Notes under the pieces: model-generated | What the model was told of the DNA's origin: nothing | Seen by the model: the letters and a program-made list of their open reading frames with translations, nothing else | The model's database searches: none | Part shown: piece by piece, positions 26,917-36,375 of the stretch | Layout of the letters: each line of letters begins with the position of its first letter | How positions within the stretch are numbered: the first letter of the stretch is position 1 | Assembly: GCF_900104725.1 (NCBI RefSeq) | Contig: NZ_LT629758.1 | Coordinates: 6,503,001-6,567,000, forward strand | DNA length: 64,000 nt | From: Actinoplanes derwentensis | GTDB taxonomy: Bacteria > Actinomycetota > Actinomycetes > Mycobacteriales > Micromonosporaceae | Direction: 5' to 3' | Translations under genes and position numbers: made by a program

Positions 26917-29340
26917 ATGCCGATTCGTGGTGGTCTGCCGCCGCGCAACCCCCGCTTCGTAGGCCGTGACGATCTCCTGACCCTGGTGCGGGAGAAGCTC
27001 GGCAACGGCCCGGTGGTGTTGCTGCCGAGCCAGGAGCATCAGCTCGGTGGCACGGGGCGTACCCAGTTGGCGGTGGAGTATGCCCATCGCCACGCCGAAG
27101 CCTACGACCTGATCTGGTGGATCCCCGCCGAGCAGACCGCCGGCACCCGCGCCGCTCTGGCGGGGCTGGCGCACCGGCTCGGGCTGCCGGAGTCCCGTGA
27201 TCTCAATCGGACACTGGGGGCGGTGCGGGATGCGCTGAGCCGTGGTGAGCCGTACCGGAACTGGCTTGTCGTCTTCGAGAACGCGAACCGGCCCGAGGAC
27301 ATCACCCCCTATCTGCCCAGCGGCGCCGGGCACGTGCTGGTGACCAGCCGTAATCCACGGTGGACGACCGAGGTGGCGCAAGGGCTGCCGGTGCCGGTGT
27401 TCGACCGTACGGACAGTGTGGACATGCTGCGGACCCGGTCGCCGGAGTTGTCCGCGGTCGACGCGGGACGGCTGGCCGAGCGTCTGGGTGACGTACCGAT
27501 GGCTCTGGATCTGGCCGCGGCGGTCCGGGAGGCGACCGGCCGCCCGGTGGCGGGCTATCTGGAGGATTTCGACCGGCGGGCCGCCGAGCTGGCTTTCCCC
27601 ACGCCGATCCGGGTGGCCTGGGGGCTGGCCGCCGAGGCACTGGGCGCCGCCGCCCCGGCCGATCGGGTGTTGCTGGAGTTGTGCACGTTCCTGGCCAGCG
27701 CGCCGATATCGTGGCGGCTGCTGTGGGCGGCGCGCACGCTGCCACTGGAGCCGGAGCTGGCCCGCACGGTGCGGGTGGAGCGGCGGTTGCGGGCCGCGAT
27801 GCGCCGGATCGCGCGGTTCGGGCTGGCCGGCCTGGATCCGGCCGGTGAGCAGCTCACCGTGCATCCGCTGATCCGGGGCATGTTCGGGCAGGAGCTGAGT
27901 TCGGAACGGCACGCGGCGTTGCTGCGGACGGTCCGGGGCATGCTGGCCGCCGGTGATCCGGGCGACCCGGACGACCCGGCCGGCTGGTATAGGTACGCCG
28001 AACTGGCCCCGCACCTGATCCACTCCGACCTGCTCGGCGGCGACGCCGAGGAGATCCGCCAGCTGGTGATCAACTGCATCCGGTTCCATTACGCCCGCGG
28101 TGACTACGACTCCAGCCGTGACCTGGCGAACGCCGCGGTGGCCCGCTGGCGCGACGGTCTGGGCGAGTCCGCCGAGCAGACCCTGCTGGCCGGGTTCCAC
28201 CTGGCCAACGCGCTGCGGTCGGTCGGTCGCACGGTGGACGCCCGCAACCTCAACCTGCAGACCCTGCGCACCCAGCGGGAGGTGGTCGGCGCCGACGACG
28301 AGGCGACCCTGGCCACCGCCAACAGCGTCGGCGCCGATCTGCGGATGCAGGGGCATTTCGGGCAGGCCCGGCAACTCGACGCCGACAATCTGGTGCGGTT
28401 CCGGCGGCTCTTCGGGGAGAGCTATCCGGCCGCGCTGCGCTGCGCCAACAATCTCGCCGCCGACCTGCGGCTGCTCGGTGACTTCCGGGGTGCCCGGGCA
28501 CTCGACGAGCAGGTGCTCCGGCACCGGCAGGCGATCTTCGTGGACGGGCATCCGGAGACCGTGTCGTCGCGGGCCGCGCTCGCCTTCGACCTGTTCGGTC
28601 TCGGCGACTACGCCGGTGCGGCCGACGTGCTGGCCGCCCGGCCCGGCGACGCGATGCCGGCCGATCATCCGTTCGCGCTCTGGGCCGGGCGGTGCGCCGC
28701 GATGGCTGCCCGGCGGCGCGGCGAGTCCCCGGCCCGGGCGCTGGCGGTGGAGAACCTGGCGATGAGCCGGAAACGGTTCGGTGAGCTGAGCGTCGACACC
28801 CTGGCGGCGGCGGTCTCGGCGGCCAACTGCGCCCGCGCCGACGGCGACCTGGACGAGGCCCACGAGATGCTGGAACGTGCCGTGATCCGCTATCACTCGG
28901 TGCTCGGCGACGAGCATCCGTTCACCCTGGCGGCGTCGGCGGCGCTGGCCGGAGTGGTCCGGGCGACGGGCCGGCACCGCGAGGCCCGGACCATCGACCT
29001 GGAAGTGCTCGGCGGGCTGCGCCGCAGTGTCGGTCCCGACCACCCGTTCACGCTGAGCTGCGCCAACGGGCTGGTCGCCGACCTCGTCGCGGTCGGTGAG
29101 GCGCAGCGGTCTCGGGAGCTGGCGGCCGACACCCTGCGCCGTTCGCAGGCGGTCCGCGGCAGCGACCATCCGGACACCACGGCCTGCGCCTGGAACCTGG
29201 CCCGGCTCGGTACCGACGAGACCGCCCGGCAGCAGGCCCTCGACGGGCTGCGGAAAGTGTTCGGCGACGGCCACCCGGTGTTCCGGGCGACCGCCGCCGA
29301 CCTGCATCTGGAGACGGAGATGGATCTGCCGCCGCTATGA
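26917..29340 (+). CDS. fxsT: FxSxx-COOH system NB-ARC/tetratricopeptide repeat protein FxsT
   Basis: 807 residues from ATG 26917 (MPIRGGLPPRNPRFVGRDDL); the upstream extension overlaps other genes. Layout: short head, AAA/NB-ARC-like domain (about 15-330) with AVEYAHRHAEAYDLIWWIPA, VVFENANRPED and GHVLVTSRNPRW, then TPR repeats of Kin-light-chain type (about 390-790; TLRTQREVVGADDEATLAT, LRRSVGPDHPFTLSCANGLV). This matches FxsT. The usual P-loop GxGGVGKTQ is here LGGTGRTQL, with Arg in place of the Walker A Lys, so ATP binding may be impaired. The stop overlaps the convergent gene by 6 nt. Family assignment is strengthened by the FxsA-like precursor 3 kb away. Confidence 0.82.
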   Translation: MPIRGGLPPRNPRFVGRDDLLTLVREKLGNGPVVLLPSQEHQLGGTGRTQLAVEYAHRHAEAYDLIWWIPAEQTAGTRAALAGLAHRLGLPESRDLNRTLGAVRDALSRGEPYRNWLVVFENANRPEDITPYLPSGAGHVLVTSRNPRWTTEVAQGLPVPVFDRTDSVDMLRTRSPELSAVDAGRLAERLGDVPMALDLAAAVREATGRPVAGYLEDFDRRAAELAFPTPIRVAWGLAAEALGAAAPADRVLLELCTFLASAPISWRLLWAARTLPLEPELARTVRVERRLRAAMRRIARFGLAGLDPAGEQLTVHPLIRGMFGQELSSERHAALLRTVRGMLAAGDPGDPDDPAGWYRYAELAPHLIHSDLLGGDAEEIRQLVINCIRFHYARGDYDSSRDLANAAVARWRDGLGESAEQTLLAGFHLANALRSVGRTVDARNLNLQTLRTQREVVGADDEATLATANSVGADLRMQGHFGQARQLDADNLVRFRRLFGESYPAALRCANNLAADLRLLGDFRGARALDEQVLRHRQAIFVDGHPETVSSRAALAFDLFGLGDYAGAADVLAARPGDAMPADHPFALWAGRCAAMAARRRGESPARALAVENLAMSRKRFGELSVDTLAAAVSAANCARADGDLDEAHEMLERAVIRYHSVLGDEHPFTLAASAALAGVVRATGRHREARTIDLEVLGGLRRSVGPDHPFTLSCANGLVADLVAVGEAQRSRELAADTLRRSQAVRGSDHPDTTACAWNLARLGTDETARQQALDGLRKVFGDGHPVFRATAADLHLETEMDLPPL

Positions 29341-31020
29341 CTCGACGTCGATGTCGATGACGACAGGGCTCTGCTTGGCCAGCAGTTCGGTCACTCCGAG
29401 AGCCGGCATCGGCCGGGCGAAGTGGTAACCCTGGGCCCGCGCACAGGCCAGTTCCCGGAGCCGTTCGGCCTGGCCGGCGTCCTCGACACCCTCGGCCACC
29501 GGGGACAGGTTGAAGGTCCGGGCGATGTGCAGCACCGCCTCGGCCACCGAGGCGCCGCCGGTCTCCGGCATCGCCTGCACGAACGAGCGGTCGATCTTGA
29601 CCACGTCGACCGGCAGGGTGCTGAGGTGGCTGAGTGAGGAGAAACCGGTGCCGAAGTCGTCGAGCGCGATCCGGACACCCAGCTCCTTGAGCGCGGACAG
29701 CACCCGGGCCGACTCGACCAGGTCGGTGAGCGCCACCGACTCGGTCAGCTCCAGCACCAGGTCGTGCGGCGGCAGGCCGGTCCGGCGCAGCACCTCACGC
29801 ACCTCGTCGATCAGCTTGGGGTTGCCGAGCTGGGAGGCGGACAGGTTGACGTTCATCTCGAATCCGGGGAACCGGATCTGCCAGTCCATCGCCTGCCGAC
29901 AGGCCTCCTCCAGGACCCAGCCGCCGAGCCGGGGCACCTGACCGAGCTGCTCGGCCAACTCCAGGAAGAGCGCCGGCGGGACCAGGCCCTTCTCCGGGTG
30001 CCGCCAGCGGACCAGCGCCTCCACCCCGACGGTGATGCCGCCCTGGGTCAGGTCGACGATCGGCTGGTAGTGCACCTCGAACTCGCCGGCCTCCAGCCCG
30101 CGCATCAGGTCCTGCTCGGCCAGGCGGCGCTGCTCGGCCTTCGCGAACATGACCGGGTCGAACCGCCGGGCCACCCCGCCGCCGTCCCGCTTGGCCCGGA
30201 TCAGGGCCTGGTCGGCGCGGCGCAGCACCCCGTCGAGACCGCTCTGGCCGCCGCCTTCGGCGACCGCGACCCCGGCACTGGCCCGGATGTCCAGCGTCAG
30301 CCCGCCCACCTGCAGGGGACGGTGCAATTCGGTGAGGACCCGCTCGGCCACCGCGACCGCGGCCTGCTCGTCCTCCAGTCCGGGCAGCAGCACCACGAAC
30401 TCGTCACCGTCCAGCCGGGCGACCGTGTCGTTGGCGCGGACGTTCACCGCGAGCCGGTCCGCCGCGGCACGCAGCAGGTCGTCGCCGGCCGAGTGCCCGA
30501 GGGCCTCGTTGATGTCCTTGAGCCCGTCCAGGTCGACCACGATCACCGCGGTCTTGGTCCGGGACGGCTCGGCGATGACCTCGGTGGCGTACTCGGTGAA
30601 CATCCGCCGGTTGCCGAGCCCGGTCAGCGGATCCCGGAAGGCCTGCTGCGCGAGCAGCGTCTGCTGCCGGTTGCGGTCCGGGTCGATCCGCGCGCCGAGG
30701 ACCTGCCGCAGCAGCCCGGCCGCGGCGACCAGCACCAGCAGCCAGGTCCCGCCCGGCGGCAGTCCGGTGGTCACCTCCCGGATCACCACCACGATCAGCG
30801 CGGCAGCCATGGTGAGCAGCCGCATCATCCCGCGACGGGTGTCCAGCAGCAGCACGGCCAGGCCCAGGCACAGTGCCGCGAGCAGTGTGACGATCCGTCC
30901 AGCCGGGCCACCCGGCTGGGCGGGATCGGCCACCGGCCAAGCCAGCAATACCAGTGACGCGAGCACCACCGTGTCATCGACGACGACGCGTACCCGGTCC
31001 CACAGAGCGTTGCGACCCAC
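29335..31020 (-). CDS. membrane GGDEF-EAL protein (c-di-GMP metabolism)
   Basis: 561 residues from GTG 31020, with GGAGG upstream. Two to three pairs of membrane helices (about 10-105) precede a GGDEF domain (about 125-290) and an EAL domain (about 300-555). The GGDEF signature reads LDGDEF, first Gly replaced by Asp, so cyclase activity is doubtful although the inhibitory RxxD site (RAND, five residues before) is kept. The EAL side looks active: VEALVRWRHP, NVNLSASQL, ELTES, DDFGTGFSSLSHL, VKIDRSFV, EGVED and QGYHFARPM. Probably a c-di-GMP phosphodiesterase. It lies between fxsT and the hydroxylase gene, 64 bp from the latter. Confidence 0.92.
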   Translation of the reverse strand: MGRNALWDRVRVVVDDTVVLASLVLLAWPVADPAQPGGPAGRIVTLLAALCLGLAVLLLDTRRGMMRLLTMAAALIVVVIREVTTGLPPGGTWLLVLVAAAGLLRQVLGARIDPDRNRQQTLLAQQAFRDPLTGLGNRRMFTEYATEVIAEPSRTKTAVIVVDLDGLKDINEALGHSAGDDLLRAAADRLAVNVRANDTVARLDGDEFVVLLPGLEDEQAAVAVAERVLTELHRPLQVGGLTLDIRASAGVAVAEGGGQSGLDGVLRRADQALIRAKRDGGGVARRFDPVMFAKAEQRRLAEQDLMRGLEAGEFEVHYQPIVDLTQGGITVGVEALVRWRHPEKGLVPPALFLELAEQLGQVPRLGGWVLEEACRQAMDWQIRFPGFEMNVNLSASQLGNPKLIDEVREVLRRTGLPPHDLVLELTESVALTDLVESARVLSALKELGVRIALDDFGTGFSSLSHLSTLPVDVVKIDRSFVQAMPETGGASVAEAVLHIARTFNLSPVAEGVEDAGQAERLRELACARAQGYHFARPMPALGVTELLAKQSPVVIDIDVES

Positions 31021-31084
31021 GACCCACCTCCGGCGAGTCAGATCGGTTCCCGCCGGTCGGGGTTGAGTAGTCAGACAAGGGCTT

Positions 31085-32404
31085 TCAGGTGCAGTACGAG
31101 AGCCAATCCGCGAGGCTGCCGACCGGGACGCCCGGCAGCGCGAGGGCGGCCGCGCGTACCACTTCCGGGCGATGCCGCAGGGCCGGGTGCGGGGAGACGA
31201 GGGCGAGGCCGTCCCAATTGTTCTGGTACGCGGTGACAGCGGCCCCGTGATCCCCGCGCACACAGGCCGCGTCCGCGCCGCCACCGAGTTCCCGGCCGTC
31301 GACCATCGCCCGGATCAGTGGCAGCCGGGGACTGTTCGCCAGCGCCCGGCCGCTCGTCGTGGTCAGGACACCGGCGATCGGTGGTGGTCCGGAGCCGGCA
31401 TGCCACGCCGCCACCAGCCGCGCGGTGTCCTCCGGCGCGACGGTCAGGTTCCGCAGCCGCCAGCGGGCCCGGTGGTCGGCGTTCGCCAGGTCGGCCAGCC
31501 GCTGGATCTCCGGCTCGACCGGCTCGTCACACCACGATCGGACTTCGGCCAGCAGGGCGCTGGTGAACCGTACGCCCGCCGGGGTCAACTCACCGCCGGC
31601 CAGCAGCCCGGCGGCGGCCCCGGCCACCGCCGAACGCCATCGGGCGAACTCGAACGCGGCCGCCCGGCCCGGCTCGGACCGGCGGAACCGGGTGACGGCC
31701 AGATAGGCGTACGCCCCGTGCAGCACCCCGAACGCCGGCCGGGGATCGTCACGCCACGGCGAATAGCCGGCCGGCCCGCCCGGTTCGACCAGGTCGAACA
31801 GCAGATGGGTGGCGTTGAGGACGCTGTGCTGTGTCTCGTGCAGCAGCCCGGCGGCCAAGGCGTCCGGCCCGGCCGGCGACGACATGGCGACCGCCCCGAA
31901 CGCCTCGGTCGAGGTGGCGCTGATGCCTTCGGCCGACGGGTCGGGCCGCACCGGCACGATCACCCGCAACACCGCGGCCATCGTCTCCGCGGCCGGACGG
32001 TGCCGGTGGACCAGCACCGTCCACGCCCGGTCCAGACAAGTGCGCCAGTGCGCCACCTCGGCCGGGCTCAGCGCGGGAGTGGGAGTGAGGCCGAGCCGGG
32101 ACCGGACCGGGTCGGTGTCCTCCAGGCGCACCGTCAGGGTCAGGCCGGCACACCTGGAGGTGAGGACGTGCGGGCCGCACGGGCCTCGGGTACCACGCTC
32201 GGGGAGGGCGGCCCACAGACCGGTCATCGGGTCGTCGGCGTACCACCCGGGGTCTCCGGAGACCCCGCGCAACGCCTGCCGCAGGAAGAGCAGCTGCCTG
32301 GTCCGCTCGGCGCGGCGCAGCGTGCCGAGCGTGTCGGCGGTGGGCCGGCCGGCACCGAGCGCGGTGAGGGCGGCGTCGCTGAGGCGGAACGGCTGCGTAC
32401 TCAT
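31085..32404 (-). CDS. HExxH-type peptide beta-hydroxylase-like protein of the FxSxx-COOH locus
   Basis: 439 residues, ATG 32404, 7 nt after the fxsA stop. It matches the family called HExxH motif-containing putative peptide modification protein (alpha-ketoglutarate-HExxH enzymes): LLHETQHSVLNATHLL carries the metal-binding HExxH at about residue 210, preceded by ISATSTEAFGAVAMSSP. The N-terminal 200 residues include SDAALTALGAGRPTADTLGT. In related systems this domain is fused to the radical SAM enzyme FxsB and hydroxylates core peptide residues; here it is a separate protein. Expected substrate: the FxsA C-terminal segment. It forms an operon with fxsA; activity is inferred. Confidence 0.8.
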   Translation of the reverse strand: MSTQPFRLSDAALTALGAGRPTADTLGTLRRAERTRQLLFLRQALRGVSGDPGWYADDPMTGLWAALPERGTRGPCGPHVLTSRCAGLTLTVRLEDTDPVRSRLGLTPTPALSPAEVAHWRTCLDRAWTVLVHRHRPAAETMAAVLRVIVPVRPDPSAEGISATSTEAFGAVAMSSPAGPDALAAGLLHETQHSVLNATHLLFDLVEPGGPAGYSPWRDDPRPAFGVLHGAYAYLAVTRFRRSEPGRAAAFEFARWRSAVAGAAAGLLAGGELTPAGVRFTSALLAEVRSWCDEPVEPEIQRLADLANADHRARWRLRNLTVAPEDTARLVAAWHAGSGPPPIAGVLTTTSGRALANSPRLPLIRAMVDGRELGGGADAACVRGDHGAAVTAYQNNWDGLALVSPHPALRHRPEVVRAAALALPGVPVGSLADWLSYCT

Positions 32405-32411
32405 CGACCGA

Positions 32412-32594
32412 TCACAGCGCGGAGTTGAAACCGGCTATCGGCTCGCCACGGGTGGTATCCGCGGTGACCCGGCGCACCGCCTGGGCCAGCACCGAATCGT
32501 CCTGGGCGAGGAGATCGGCGAGTGGCACCTCGGAGAGATCGGTCAGCACCGAGCGCCACTCCTGCGGCTGTTCGCCCTCCTGGCTCGTGTGCAC
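32412..32594 (-). CDS. fxsA: FxSxx-COOH precursor peptide FxsA
   Basis: 60 residues from GTG 32594, with GAGGGG 6 nt upstream; the longer open frame upstream is not needed. The leader contains VLTDLSEVPLADLLAQDD and SVLAQAVRRV, a close match to the conserved FxsA leader pattern (L-x-EVPLA-L-x-x-DD-x-VLA). The C-terminus is IAGFNSAL, the Phe-x-Ser-x-x-COOH signature. It encodes a ribosomally made peptide that should be modified at this tail. It is first in a two-gene operon with the HExxH protein. Confidence 0.88.
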   Translation of the reverse strand: MHTSQEGEQPQEWRSVLTDLSEVPLADLLAQDDSVLAQAVRRVTADTTRGEPIAGFNSAL

Positions 32595-32762: not shown

Positions 32763-32945
32763 GTGCTGGATGGAGAGCAGGACGCCGGTGAGGGCATCCC
32801 ACGCGCCGACATCGATGTTCGCGGGGACGCCGAGGCACCGGTGATGCCGGTGCCGACGTTCCCCACCTTTCACCACACACCGACGTTGCCGCATCAGCCC
32901 CCCGGCAACGGATTCGAGAGCGGACGCGACAGTCGTGCACGGTGA
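32763..32945 (+). CDS. small Pro/His-rich protein (60 aa)
   Basis: GTG 32763 is preceded by GGAGGG at 7 nt, a good start. The first 26 residues are acidic (VLDGEQDAGEGIPRADIDV), the middle is Pro/His/Phe-rich (PVMPVPTFPTFHHTPTLPHQ) and the end is polar (GNGFESGRDSRAR). There is no signal peptide. The gene is divergent from fxsA and its stop overlaps the next gene by 11 nt. I recognise no family. It could be a small regulatory protein or a peptide precursor; the codon pattern and start make it more likely real than not. Confidence 0.5.
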   Translation: MLDGEQDAGEGIPRADIDVRGDAEAPVMPVPTFPTFHHTPTLPHQPPGNGFESGRDSRAR

Positions 32946-33321
32946 ACACTCGCTGCCCCGACGCGGTCCGGCGCCCCCGGTCGACCGGATGGACAACGCC
33001 GAACTGGCCCGGCTGATCGAGTCCGAGCACCCCTATCGGGGGAAGGCTCTCTTCGAGCTCTGCGACCGGATCGCACTCGACGACGACGCGGCCACCAAGG
33101 TGGGGTTGCTGTCCCGGCTCACCTCGCTGCGGCGGGCGCGGCTCTTCGACCGGGTGTCGCTGGCCTGGTCGGCGATCATCGCGCTGCTGGCGGCGGAGAC
33201 CGTTCACTCGCGGGCGGAGGCGTACGACGCGTTCGGTGCGCTCGACGAGGCGGAGCGGCGGGACATGCTGGACTATCTGGAGGTCTCGGCGATCGAGGAG
33301 GCCCACCCGCGGATCACGTGA
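32935..33321 (+). CDS. hypothetical helical protein (128 aa)
   Basis: Starts at GTG 32935 inside the preceding small gene, or at ATG 32989 (MDNAELARLIESEHPY) if the Pro-rich head is excluded. All-helical: ELARLIESEHPYRGKALFE, KVGLLSRLTSLRRARLFDR, AEAYDAFGALDEAERRDML. No motif is recognised. Co-directional with, and overlapping, the 60-residue gene, so probably the same transcript. It converges on the DUF427 gene with a 19 bp gap. Confidence 0.6.
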   Translation: MHGEHSLPRRGPAPPVDRMDNAELARLIESEHPYRGKALFELCDRIALDDDAATKVGLLSRLTSLRRARLFDRVSLAWSAIIALLAAETVHSRAEAYDAFGALDEAERRDMLDYLEVSAIEEAHPRIT

Positions 33322-33340
33322 GTGGGCCCCGCTGTTGGGT

Positions 33341-33631
33341 TCAGGCCTGGATCAGGACTCCGCCTCCGCCGCGGAACGCGACCCGGTCGCGTACCGCGGA
33401 GGCGTCCGGTTTCGGGTCGGGGTAGAACCAGGCGGCGTCCGCCGCGGTGTGCCCGTCGGCGCGCAGCGAGTAGTAGGAGGCTTTGCCCTTCCAGGGGCAG
33501 ACGGTGTGCGTCTCCGACGGGACGAGCACGTCCTCACGGACGCTGGCGAGGGGAAAGTAGTGGTTGCCCTCGAGTACCACCGTGTCGTCGCTGTCAGCGA
33601 TCACTTCGTCGTTCCAGATGGCCTTCGGCAT
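33341..33631 (-). CDS. DUF427 (nucleotidyltransferase-like beta-barrel) family protein
   Basis: 96 residues, ATG 33631. The family motifs are complete: MPKAIWNDEVIADSDDTVV, EGNHYFPLASVREDVLVPSE, THTVCPWKGKASYYSLRADG and AAWFYPDPKPDA. DUF427 proteins are common single-domain proteins in Actinobacteria with no established function. Length matches the family. It is monocistronic. Confidence 0.93.
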   Translation of the reverse strand: MPKAIWNDEVIADSDDTVVLEGNHYFPLASVREDVLVPSETHTVCPWKGKASYYSLRADGHTAADAAWFYPDPKPDASAVRDRVAFRGGGGVLIQA

Positions 33632-33677
33632 GTCCCGAACGTAGCGCGTGCGTCAGATTATGTCTGATATGTGCGAT

Positions 33678-33786
33678 TCATTCACCTCCCGTGGGTGAAT
33701 TGCCGCATCGATTTCGGCGTTCTAGAGTCGAGTTTCCGATCTTCAGCTTTCCTTTGGGCGTTTCGATCTTCAGCTTTCCTTGGGCG
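33678..33786 (+). promoter_or_regulatory. inverted and direct repeats upstream of the nuclease gene
   Basis: ATTCACC/GGGTGAAT hairpin (about 33678-33698) is followed by two copies of cgatcttcagctttcctt (about 33738 and 33762), spaced 24-25 bp. The whole lies directly before the nuclease start in an AT-richer stretch and looks like a promoter-operator region. Confidence 0.45.
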
Positions 33787-33794
33787 GGGTGCGG

Positions 33795-34847
33795 GTGCAG
33801 CAGGACCGGCTCGACGAGTTGCGCGGCCCCGAGCGGGCCAAGCGCCACAACGCGCGGACCATCGCCGCGCTCACCGGCAACCCCGGCTGCAACCGGCGTG
33901 CCGTCCTCGACGCGGCCGGCATCGACAAGACCCGGCTTGCCGACCGGGTCGGTTTCCCCGGCAGCTTCGGCCAGTCCCGGTTCGCGCTCTCCCGCGGCAA
34001 CGCCTTCGAAGCCATGCTCAAAGCCGACGACTGCGCGCTGCTGCGCACCGTCCTCGCCGCCGACGCCGGCCTCGGCTACCAGGACATGGGCGCGGACAAC
34101 GACGACACCCTCGGCGACCGGCACTCCCGGACCGCAGGCCTGCTCGCCTCGGCACAGGCCGCGCTCATCGACCATCCGCTGCTCACCCTGGAGATCGCCG
34201 GGCAGACCGTCTATCTCGAACCCGACCTGATCGCCTGGGCCCAGCAGGGCCGCCTCCAGGTGGTCGAGATCAAGTCGTTCGCGATCATCGACGATCAGGC
34301 CGAGAGCGCCAAAGTGTCGGCCGCCGCCGTGCAGGCCGCCGTCTACGTCCTCGCCCTCCGCGATCTGCTCACCCGCCTCGGCCAGGACCCGTCACTGGTC
34401 AGCCACGAGGTCGTCCTGGTCTGCCCGCGCGATTTCACCCTGCAGCCCGTCGCCGTCGTCCTCGACGTCCGCAAACAACTCTCCACCCTGCGGCGCCAGC
34501 TCTCCCGGCTGGCCGCCGTCGAGACCCTCATCGACGCCCTCCCCGACGGGCTCACCTTCGACCTGGCGCTCGAACCCGCCGACCTGACCGAAGCACTCAG
34601 CCACATCACCCCCCGGTACGCGCCGGAATGTCTCTCCGCCTGCGAACTCTCCGTCTACTGCCGCAACGAGGCCGCAGGCAGCACGGCGGCTCTGGGCCGG
34701 TCGGTCCGGGAATCCCTCGGCGGCATCCCGACCGTCGCGGAGGTCCTGGCCCTGGCCGAGGGCCGGCAAACCCCGACGGAGGAGCAGAACGAGGCGGCGG
34801 CACTGCTCCAGGCCGCTTTGCGGTTGCGGTCCGAGGCCCTTTCTTGA
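33795..34847 (+). CDS. PD-(D/E)xK nuclease with probable Fe-S cluster (Cas4/AddB-like)
   Basis: About 350 residues from GTG 33795 (GGGCGGGG upstream; GTG 33789 also possible). One Cys in NPGCNRRAVLDAAGID (about residue 32) and three in ECLSACELSVYCRNEA (C-x3-C-x5-C, about 275-285) recall the 1+3 cysteine arrangement of Cas4/AddB Fe-S nucleases. The core motif is EPDLIAWAQQGRLQVVEIKS: Asp, then Glu-x-Lys, the PD-(D/E)xK metal site at about residues 138-158. A HSRTAGLLASAQAAL helix carries a candidate upstream His. No cas genes or CRISPR array are in the window. It forms a unit with the unknown gene 43 bp downstream. Confidence 0.75.
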   Translation: MQQDRLDELRGPERAKRHNARTIAALTGNPGCNRRAVLDAAGIDKTRLADRVGFPGSFGQSRFALSRGNAFEAMLKADDCALLRTVLAADAGLGYQDMGADNDDTLGDRHSRTAGLLASAQAALIDHPLLTLEIAGQTVYLEPDLIAWAQQGRLQVVEIKSFAIIDDQAESAKVSAAAVQAAVYVLALRDLLTRLGQDPSLVSHEVVLVCPRDFTLQPVAVVLDVRKQLSTLRRQLSRLAAVETLIDALPDGLTFDLALEPADLTEALSHITPRYAPECLSACELSVYCRNEAAGSTAALGRSVRESLGGIPTVAEVLALAEGRQTPTEEQNEAAALLQAALRLRSEALS

Positions 34848-34890
34848 GTACGTCGACCGCTCCCGTCTCCTCCTCGCGGCCGGCGGCCCG

Positions 34891-36375
34891 GTGAGCACTC
34901 TGACCGCGCTCGCCCGGGCGCAGGCCGTCGTCGCCGGGCAGGCACAACCCGTCGCCACCGTGCGCCACGTGCACGTCCACGACCATCCGATCGTGCTGAT
35001 CCCGCTGGCCATGGCCGGGGAGGCGATCGCGCCCCTGGCAGCGATGGTCGGCACCGACCCGGCCCACCCGCGACTGCTCACCGTCGCGCAGCCCCGCAAC
35101 CGGGACGACCGGTTCCGTTTCGCCACCGAACTCGCCGAGATCCTCGTCCCGCACGTCGACTCGTTCGCCACCGACACCGAGGACGTCCCGGTCGACCGGG
35201 GCAAGGACGTCCGGCAGCGGTACGTGGACGCGCCCCAGATCTGGGTACCGAACCCGGCCGGCATCGACTTCCTGCGACTCCTCGGCCGGTCCACCCGCTT
35301 CCGCCGGATCGACGGCGACTATCCGGTGCCGCCGGCCGTTCCCCTGCTCGGTCGCTGGCTCACCTTCTTCGCCAACAGCGCCGAAGTCCCCGGATCGGCG
35401 TTGCTGACCAACGCCGTACAAGCGCTGGGTCTGCACTGGGTGACCGGGCAGAGCGGCGCCGAGGACGCCCAGTTCGGTGTCCAGCTCGCCTGGATCGAAC
35501 AGGGCGCGGCCGCCGCCCGCGAAGCCGAGAACGGCCCCGTCGCCGGCCCCGCCACCGACCCCGACTTCGACAACCGGGTGCTGGCCCCTCTGATCGAACG
35601 CTCCGCCCCCGAACTGCCGAAGGTCCTCCATGACCTGCTGCTGCCGACCTGGCAGCGGATGTGGCGCACCCTCACTCTGCTGCGCCGCCTCCCACCCGGC
35701 GACCGGGTCCGGTCCCGCTGGGACGCCGACCGCGACGCTTTCACCGCGTTCAGCCAGAACCTGGCCGAAGGCGGCCCGCCCCAGCCCCGCCGCGACGGCG
35801 CGGTAGCCGCAGCCGCCCGCCTCCAGCGCCTGGAGACCGCCGCCGCCCGCTATGCCGTCCAGCGAGCCTTCGACGACCCACTGGTCCTGGCCGAATACCG
35901 GCTCAACGGCTCGGCGTTCGCCGGCATCGTCACCCTCGCCAATCCCGACCGCGTCGATGACACCGGCAAACGCCCGGTACTCCGCCCCCGGATCATGGTC
36001 CACACCACCGAACCGGTCCGGATGGAACCCGGCACCAACCTGACGTCCCCTGCCCGCCCCGCCCAGAAGGCGAAGGTCATCTCGATCCTCCCGGCGGCCG
36101 GCGGCCACGACGTCCTCCTGGAACTCTCCGGCGGCATGGGCCGCCGACTGATCGCCGACCCGGGAAGCGTCCCCACGATCGGCGAGCCGATCACCTTGAC
36201 GACGCTGAGCGAGGCCTACCGCCCCGGCGGCGCTCTCCCCGACCCCACCGAAACCCCATGGACCCACGGCGGCCCCCCGGTCTACGACCAGCCCCCCGAT
36301 CCCACCCCGGACCCGGATACCGCCACCGACCCGGGGCCGGGCCTCCTCTCGGATCCGGCCGGAACCTCTGCCTGA
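34891..36375 (+). CDS. unknown protein paired with the Fe-S nuclease (494 aa)
   Basis: GTG 34891. I recognise no domain. Residues 1-120 contain a His-rich strand (VATVRHVHVHDHPIVLIPLA) and NRDDRFRFATELAEIL. The middle has PQIWVPNPAGIDFLRLLG, PVPPAVPLLGRWLTFFA and a helical Arg-rich portion (LPTWQRMWRTLTLLRRLPPG). The last 60 residues are a Pro/Asp-rich tail. No Walker motif, signal peptide or membrane helix is seen. The 43 bp gap and shared direction suggest it works with the nuclease; a DNA-protection role is an inference. Confidence 0.7.
   Translation: MSTLTALARAQAVVAGQAQPVATVRHVHVHDHPIVLIPLAMAGEAIAPLAAMVGTDPAHPRLLTVAQPRNRDDRFRFATELAEILVPHVDSFATDTEDVPVDRGKDVRQRYVDAPQIWVPNPAGIDFLRLLGRSTRFRRIDGDYPVPPAVPLLGRWLTFFANSAEVPGSALLTNAVQALGLHWVTGQSGAEDAQFGVQLAWIEQGAAAAREAENGPVAGPATDPDFDNRVLAPLIERSAPELPKVLHDLLLPTWQRMWRTLTLLRRLPPGDRVRSRWDADRDAFTAFSQNLAEGGPPQPRRDGAVAAAARLQRLETAAARYAVQRAFDDPLVLAEYRLNGSAFAGIVTLANPDRVDDTGKRPVLRPRIMVHTTEPVRMEPGTNLTSPARPAQKAKVISILPAAGGHDVLLELSGGMGRRLIADPGSVPTIGEPITLTTLSEAYRPGGALPDPTETPWTHGGPPVYDQPPDPTPDPDTATDPGPGLLSDPAGTSA

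Follow-up and report, generated by a model that had tools for sequence, protein, structure and literature searches.

The triceptide enzyme MscB presumably belongs to the FxsB family, whose NCBIfam model (TIGR04269) is named as cyclophane-forming, the corresponding precursor model (TIGR04268) being named as cyclophane-containing. It links C4 of Phe to the C-beta of Ser at positions i and i+2, with one residue between them, according to the available part of a review (PMC11002830). The available part of a further source (PMC12636437) describes an HExxH enzyme fused to a radical S-adenosylmethionine (SAM) enzyme, with beta-hydroxylation of Asp and His only after cyclophane formation, and the stand-alone enzymes PflC and PosC, which hydroxylate linear peptides with no radical SAM partner; without its leader, PflC has proteolytic activity. 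Here, an FxSxx-COOH locus of Actinoplanes derwentensis (G000) is described, comprising genes for an FxsA precursor, a stand-alone HExxH hydroxylase and a TPR protein (Table 1). It lies in a window of 64,000 nucleotides, positions 6503001-6567000 of contig C1, in a genome of 10.65 Mb on a single contig. The locus is a split variant of the known system, conserved in the genus and lacking FxsB, while an absence of the radical SAM step from the pathway is not shown.

The fxsA product scores 46.8 bits against TIGR04268 (cut-off 28) in a profile search. As originally predicted from the sequence, it contains an EVPLA motif and has the C-terminus AGFNSAL, which is an F-x-S-x-x ending. The predicted position of the HExxH gene was also correct, as its ATG (start 32404) is separated by a gap of 7 nt from the fxsA stop codon (end 32412). 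The HExxH protein carries an HETQH motif, scores 145.1 bits against TIGR04267 (aKG-HExxH-type peptide beta-hydroxylase, cut-off 40) and has the fold of the HExxH domain of ChlBH, in a structural comparison that barely covers the part past residue 309. The identities of TIGR04267-04269 and TIGR04276 were confirmed by the family databases' own names. None of the nine TIGR04269 matches of the genome lies in the window, and tblastn with two unfused FxsBs of A. derwentensis as queries gave at most 25.8 bits there. The claim that no radical SAM protein is encoded in the window thus stands for FxsB; the search there did not extend to further radical SAM families.

The HExxH protein was searched against 354 genomes of the family and matched in 244 of them at E <= 1e-15. 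The 49 best-matching other genomes were fetched (48 of the genus and one of another genus; E <= 4.1e-66), giving with the window 50 loci, 49 of them among the 67 genomes of the genus. FxsA, HExxH and TPR orthologues are in the same order in 49/49 other loci, and fxsA and the HExxH gene stand side by side in all 50. No FxsB was found at any of the 49 others (tblastn, E <= 1e-4, stretches mostly 19.5 kb), which gives 0/50 with the window. The same arrangement in 49 other genomes is not due to chance, and a deletion private to the A. derwentensis strain is ruled out, since 50 genomes share this state. Six lower-scoring loci from other genera were used as outgroup (the four next-best matches and two from further down, with others such as G301, G287, G145, G274 and G159 left out), and all six have the order FxsA-FxsB-HExxH. 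Carriers with known names are mostly Actinoplanes. A scan of named genomes revealed 18 loci of the same kind, none with FxsB, among them those of Actinoplanes utahensis, A. couchii, A. cyaneus, A. flavus, Paractinoplanes rishiriensis and Mangrovihabitans endophyticus; they overlap with the 50-locus set and are no extra evidence.

The FxsA tail AGFNSA is identical in 50/50 loci and is followed by L (42), I (4), V (3) or F (1), while the positions upstream of it are variable. Codons in the core vary silently, with four codons for Ala -2, three for Ser -3 and four for Gly -6. HExxH and PWRxDPRP are likewise intact in all 50 loci, and FEFARWR in 46 of them. Of 44 FxsA-like rows, 8 have tails of the form AG[FW]xSA[ILM], and all eight come from stretches that also contain FxsB; AGFNSAL is therefore a tail of the kind that goes with FxsB.

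In the A. derwentensis genome, a whole-genome profile search recognized FxsB above the TIGR04269 cut-off at three sites, 5.864, 1.137 and 2.399 Mb, and a match below this cut-off at 0.797 Mb. The 5.864 Mb FxsB is coded in a frame of 867 aa with a fused HExxH domain; those at 1.137 Mb (414 aa frame) and 2.399 Mb (403 aa frame) are unfused, and at 2.399 Mb FxsA, FxsB and HExxH are encoded by three separate genes of one operon. The statement that known FxsBs carry a fused HExxH domain was therefore too strong, as two of the three above-cut-off FxsBs are in frames of 403-414 aa. A stand-alone HExxH protein is normal for this genome, and because unfused FxsB and a separate HExxH gene occur together in it, and recur in the genus, the stand-alone gene is neither a novelty nor the odd part of the locus; what is odd is that FxsB is consistently missing from it. 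The original prediction offered two alternatives, a peptide that is only hydroxylated or a radical SAM enzyme encoded elsewhere, and the support found is for the latter. It had also named an intact FxsB gene elsewhere in the genome and needed for maturation as a finding that would refute it; the first half of this, an intact FxsB elsewhere, is what the search revealed. A search for FxsC gave no match in the genome, and the control queries gave none either. A second FxsA/HExxH/TPR locus was observed at 1.125-1.131 Mb (L049:7280-11981, L050:6833-8056), with the nearest FxsB about 6.3 kb past its TPR gene. The locus at 0.794-0.800 Mb (L052:8318-14224) has a radical SAM gene at 297 bits, below the FxsB cut-off, and three stretches resembling HExxH, of which the weakest scores 25 bits.

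FxsB is present elsewhere in the genome in 50/50 carriers, 49 in the genus and the carrier of another genus, which has one FxsB. That the pathway as such lacks a radical SAM enzyme is rejected on this ground. FxsB was recognized (E <= 1e-60) in 64 of the 67 genomes of the genus, including 15 of the 18 non-carriers; the three without it (G039, G058 and G061) are also without the locus. Surroundings were fetched for most unfused FxsBs of carriers, most of those of fused type, with frames of about 700-900 aa, being left out. A lone FxsB, with no FxsA, HExxH or TPR match above thresholds over at least 4 kb on each side, was found in 32/50 carriers. This count leaves out G032, with an FxsA-like open reading frame (ORF) of 26.6 bits beside its FxsB, G343, G035 and G064, with less than 1.5 kb or 0.3 kb visible on one side, and the 1.137 Mb FxsB of A. 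derwentensis, as the end of a TPR gene lies about 6.3 kb from it; G343, G035, G064 and A. derwentensis are placed neither with these carriers nor with those that showed no lone FxsB. All 37 FxsBs initially listed as lone retain CxxxCxxC. Seven genomes have common neighbours around the lone FxsB, including a gene matching SAICAR synthetase (one copy scanned), and FxsB is thus a stable chromosomal gene there. Nine carriers (G011, G012, G016, G019, G028, G029, G051, G055 and G056) have a single FxsA (E <= 1e-3; FxsA counts are lower bounds), at the locus, and a single FxsB (E <= 1e-60), which is lone. Three of them, G016, G029 and G055, are single-contig assemblies, and by coordinate FxsA and FxsB are separated by 6.8, 6.0 and 1.2 Mb, respectively.

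The surroundings of non-carrier FxsBs were covered in 8 of the 18 genomes, mostly with 3-4 kb per side. Ten of the 11 stretches from these eight genomes have HExxH, TPR or FxsA alongside FxsB, and one (L227, divergent) has none of them.

A split FxSxx-COOH pathway of triceptide type, with FxsA and the HExxH enzyme coded at one conserved locus and a distant FxsB acting in trans, is regarded as probable. The chemistry of MscB, the cyclophane-first order of the fused HExxH enzyme and the occurrence of such tails beside FxsB suggest a crosslink of Phe-Asn-Ser made in trans and then hydroxylation. FxsA and the hydroxylase would be made from the conserved locus and the cyclophane-forming FxsB from elsewhere in the genome. 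FxsB would bind the FxsA leader and join Phe to Ser within the C-terminal Phe-Asn-Ser, and the HExxH enzyme would afterwards place a beta-hydroxyl on the ring or next to it. A lone FxsB is available in about two thirds of the genomes; the others would take theirs from a complete FxSxx cluster.

Several observations weigh against such a split pathway. FxsB is near-universal in the genus, and its presence in carriers is therefore weak evidence alone; 13/50 carriers showed no lone FxsB, and the non-carrier G054 has an FxsB with no partner within about 4 kb. The FxsA counts are lower bounds because the FxsA of the 2.399 Mb operon escaped the family search. The TPR orthologue tree shows one change of state for the locus and ten for the lone-FxsB status, with labels that still treated A. 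derwentensis, G343, G035, G064 and G032 as lone; with a single state change of the locus, a test of its pairing with lone FxsB cannot reach significance. In the FxsB tree, computed without four rows (L139, L143, L174 and L204) with a stop codon in the aligned stretch or too short, lone FxsBs are spread over several subclades. A single dedicated FxsB clade or partner is thus not supported, and relocation of the original FxsB and take-over by another are indistinguishable. A row in one 51-row FxsB clade was found for 42/50 carriers, the rows of three more carriers being skipped.

Part of this evidence also agrees with maturation independent of FxsB, in which the HExxH enzyme alone would modify linear FxsA, by hydroxylation of Asn, Ser or Phe or by oxidative cleavage, and the FxsBs would serve other peptides. 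FxsB stands beside the locus in 0/50 genomes, no lone copy was seen in 13, and PflC and PosC provide, in the available part of the source, a precedent for action on linear peptides (PMC12636437). It is nevertheless unlikely, as the Phe-x-Ser core is kept in 50/50 loci, the six outgroup loci pair FxsB with the same kind of tail, and in nine genomes the sole detected FxsB is lone and the sole detected FxsA is at the locus. It is also improbable that, throughout a clade, the HExxH enzyme works on uncrosslinked Phe-Asn-Ser before or instead of FxsB; the steps would then be separately encoded and controlled, and one distant FxsB may serve several precursor loci in the cell. A peptidase that trims FxsA, and is not a hydroxylase, could be read from the HExxH motif itself, from the zincin peptidases among the low-Z rows of the fold comparison and from the proteolysis by leaderless PflC described in the available part of PMC12636437, but such a role is highly unlikely. 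The complete loci of relatives in other genera and the TPR gene that persists without the pair in six genomes would fit a once complete cluster in decay, its FxsB lost and no product made; a core invariant with silent changes and intact HExxH and PWRxDPRP motifs, all in 50/50 loci, make it extremely improbable.

The TPR protein scores 773 bits against NF040586 FxSxx_TPR (cut-off 300). Its prediction as an NB-ARC/TPR protein was right for the TPR part and only loosely so for NB-ARC, as Pfam NB-ARC had no match at E <= 0.1. A P-loop-like site GG[TV]GRTQL, with Arg for Lys, was observed in 55 of 56 rows of TPR orthologues, the remaining row being incomplete; in contrast, the FxSxx loci at 5.86 and 2.40 Mb of the A. 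derwentensis genome have GMGGVGKTQL. The TPR orthologue persists in six genomes without fxsA or HExxH found alongside, and the tie of TPR to the fxsA-HExxH pair is thus loose. In these six (L229-L234) a STAS gene adjoins TPR, GGDEF-EAL does so in five, and in L234 the 128 aa neighbour is close to the TPR gene.

Table 1. Features of the FxSxx-COOH locus in the window of A. derwentensis
Feature	Position in window	Strand	Description
fxsA	32412..32594	-	FxSxx-COOH precursor of 60 aa, GTG start at 32594, stop included
FxsA C-terminal AGFNSAL	32415..32435	-	Phe-Asn-Ser is the presumed crosslink site
Stand-alone aKG-HExxH-type peptide hydroxylase	31085..32404	-	439 aa, stop included
HETQH motif	31826..31840	-	Residues 189-193 of the HExxH protein
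FxSxx-system TPR protein	26917..29340	+	807 aa, stop included; convergent with the fxsA-HExxH pair
GGDEF-EAL gene	29335-31284		Between the HExxH and TPR genes

The GGDEF-EAL gene is kept in 46 of 49 other loci; in L117, L127 and L128 it is absent and HExxH and TPR adjoin, as in the outgroup loci. Right of fxsA, at 32935-36372, there are three genes (for a 128 aa protein, a protein with a weak, sub-cut-off match to PD-(D/E)XK and a 494 aa protein), for which the family search gave no match above any cut-off; they are kept in 48, 49 and 49 of the 49 other loci. Four window proteins were compared with PADLOC (E <= 0.01), and none matched. Pairs of FxsB genes about 7 kb apart were seen in the stretches L179, L182, L185, L187, L189 and L228, each pair accompanied by two TPR genes but by no match to HExxH or FxsA. 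In the scan of named genomes, four Frankia loci (L254, L255, L256 and L258) have FxsB, HExxH and TPR, and the tails of their FxsA-like ORFs carry GFNSS-like motifs, some of them twice. At two Streptomyces loci (L253 and L257) an HExxH gene is present, and neither FxsB, TPR nor a clear FxsA lies within about 9 kb.

The enzymes of ribosomally synthesized and post-translationally modified peptides (RiPPs) are usually sought beside the precursor; here the precursor and hydroxylase are unlinked from the crosslinking enzyme, and this state is conserved. The nine genomes with an apparent one-to-one pairing of FxsA and FxsB are material for study of trans action, of leader recognition between loci and of the hydroxylase's need for a cyclophane. 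The conserved tails, AGFNSAL and its variants with a final I, V or F, suggest that a family of short and almost identical products is kept across the genus. No account of a split FxSxx pathway was found in the literature searched, the main FxsB and ChlBH papers being outside it, and absence from print is not claimed.

Like PflC and PosC, as described in the available part of PMC12636437, the HExxH enzyme here stands alone at a RiPP locus that has no radical SAM gene, but their precursors are of NHLP type with Gln runs and an ARMD tail, and here FxsA ends with FNSAL. Fused radical SAM/aKG-HExxH enzymes (ChlBH) and SjiH are also among the nearest known systems. Asp and His, given in that part of the source as targets of the radical SAM-fused HExxH enzyme, are absent from the AGFNSAL tail. 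Triceptides have a crosslink, while that of A. derwentensis FxsA is only presumed; Phe-Asn-Ser does have Phe and Ser at the i and i+2 positions of the rule given in the available part of the review (PMC11002830). The closest relationship is to the FxSxx-COOH system (TIGR04268, TIGR04269 and NF040586), with which the locus shares a precursor and a TPR protein above cut-off, a Phe-x-Ser tail and FxsB in the genome. It differs from that system in that the locus is without FxsB in 50/50 genomes, so FxsB would act in trans.
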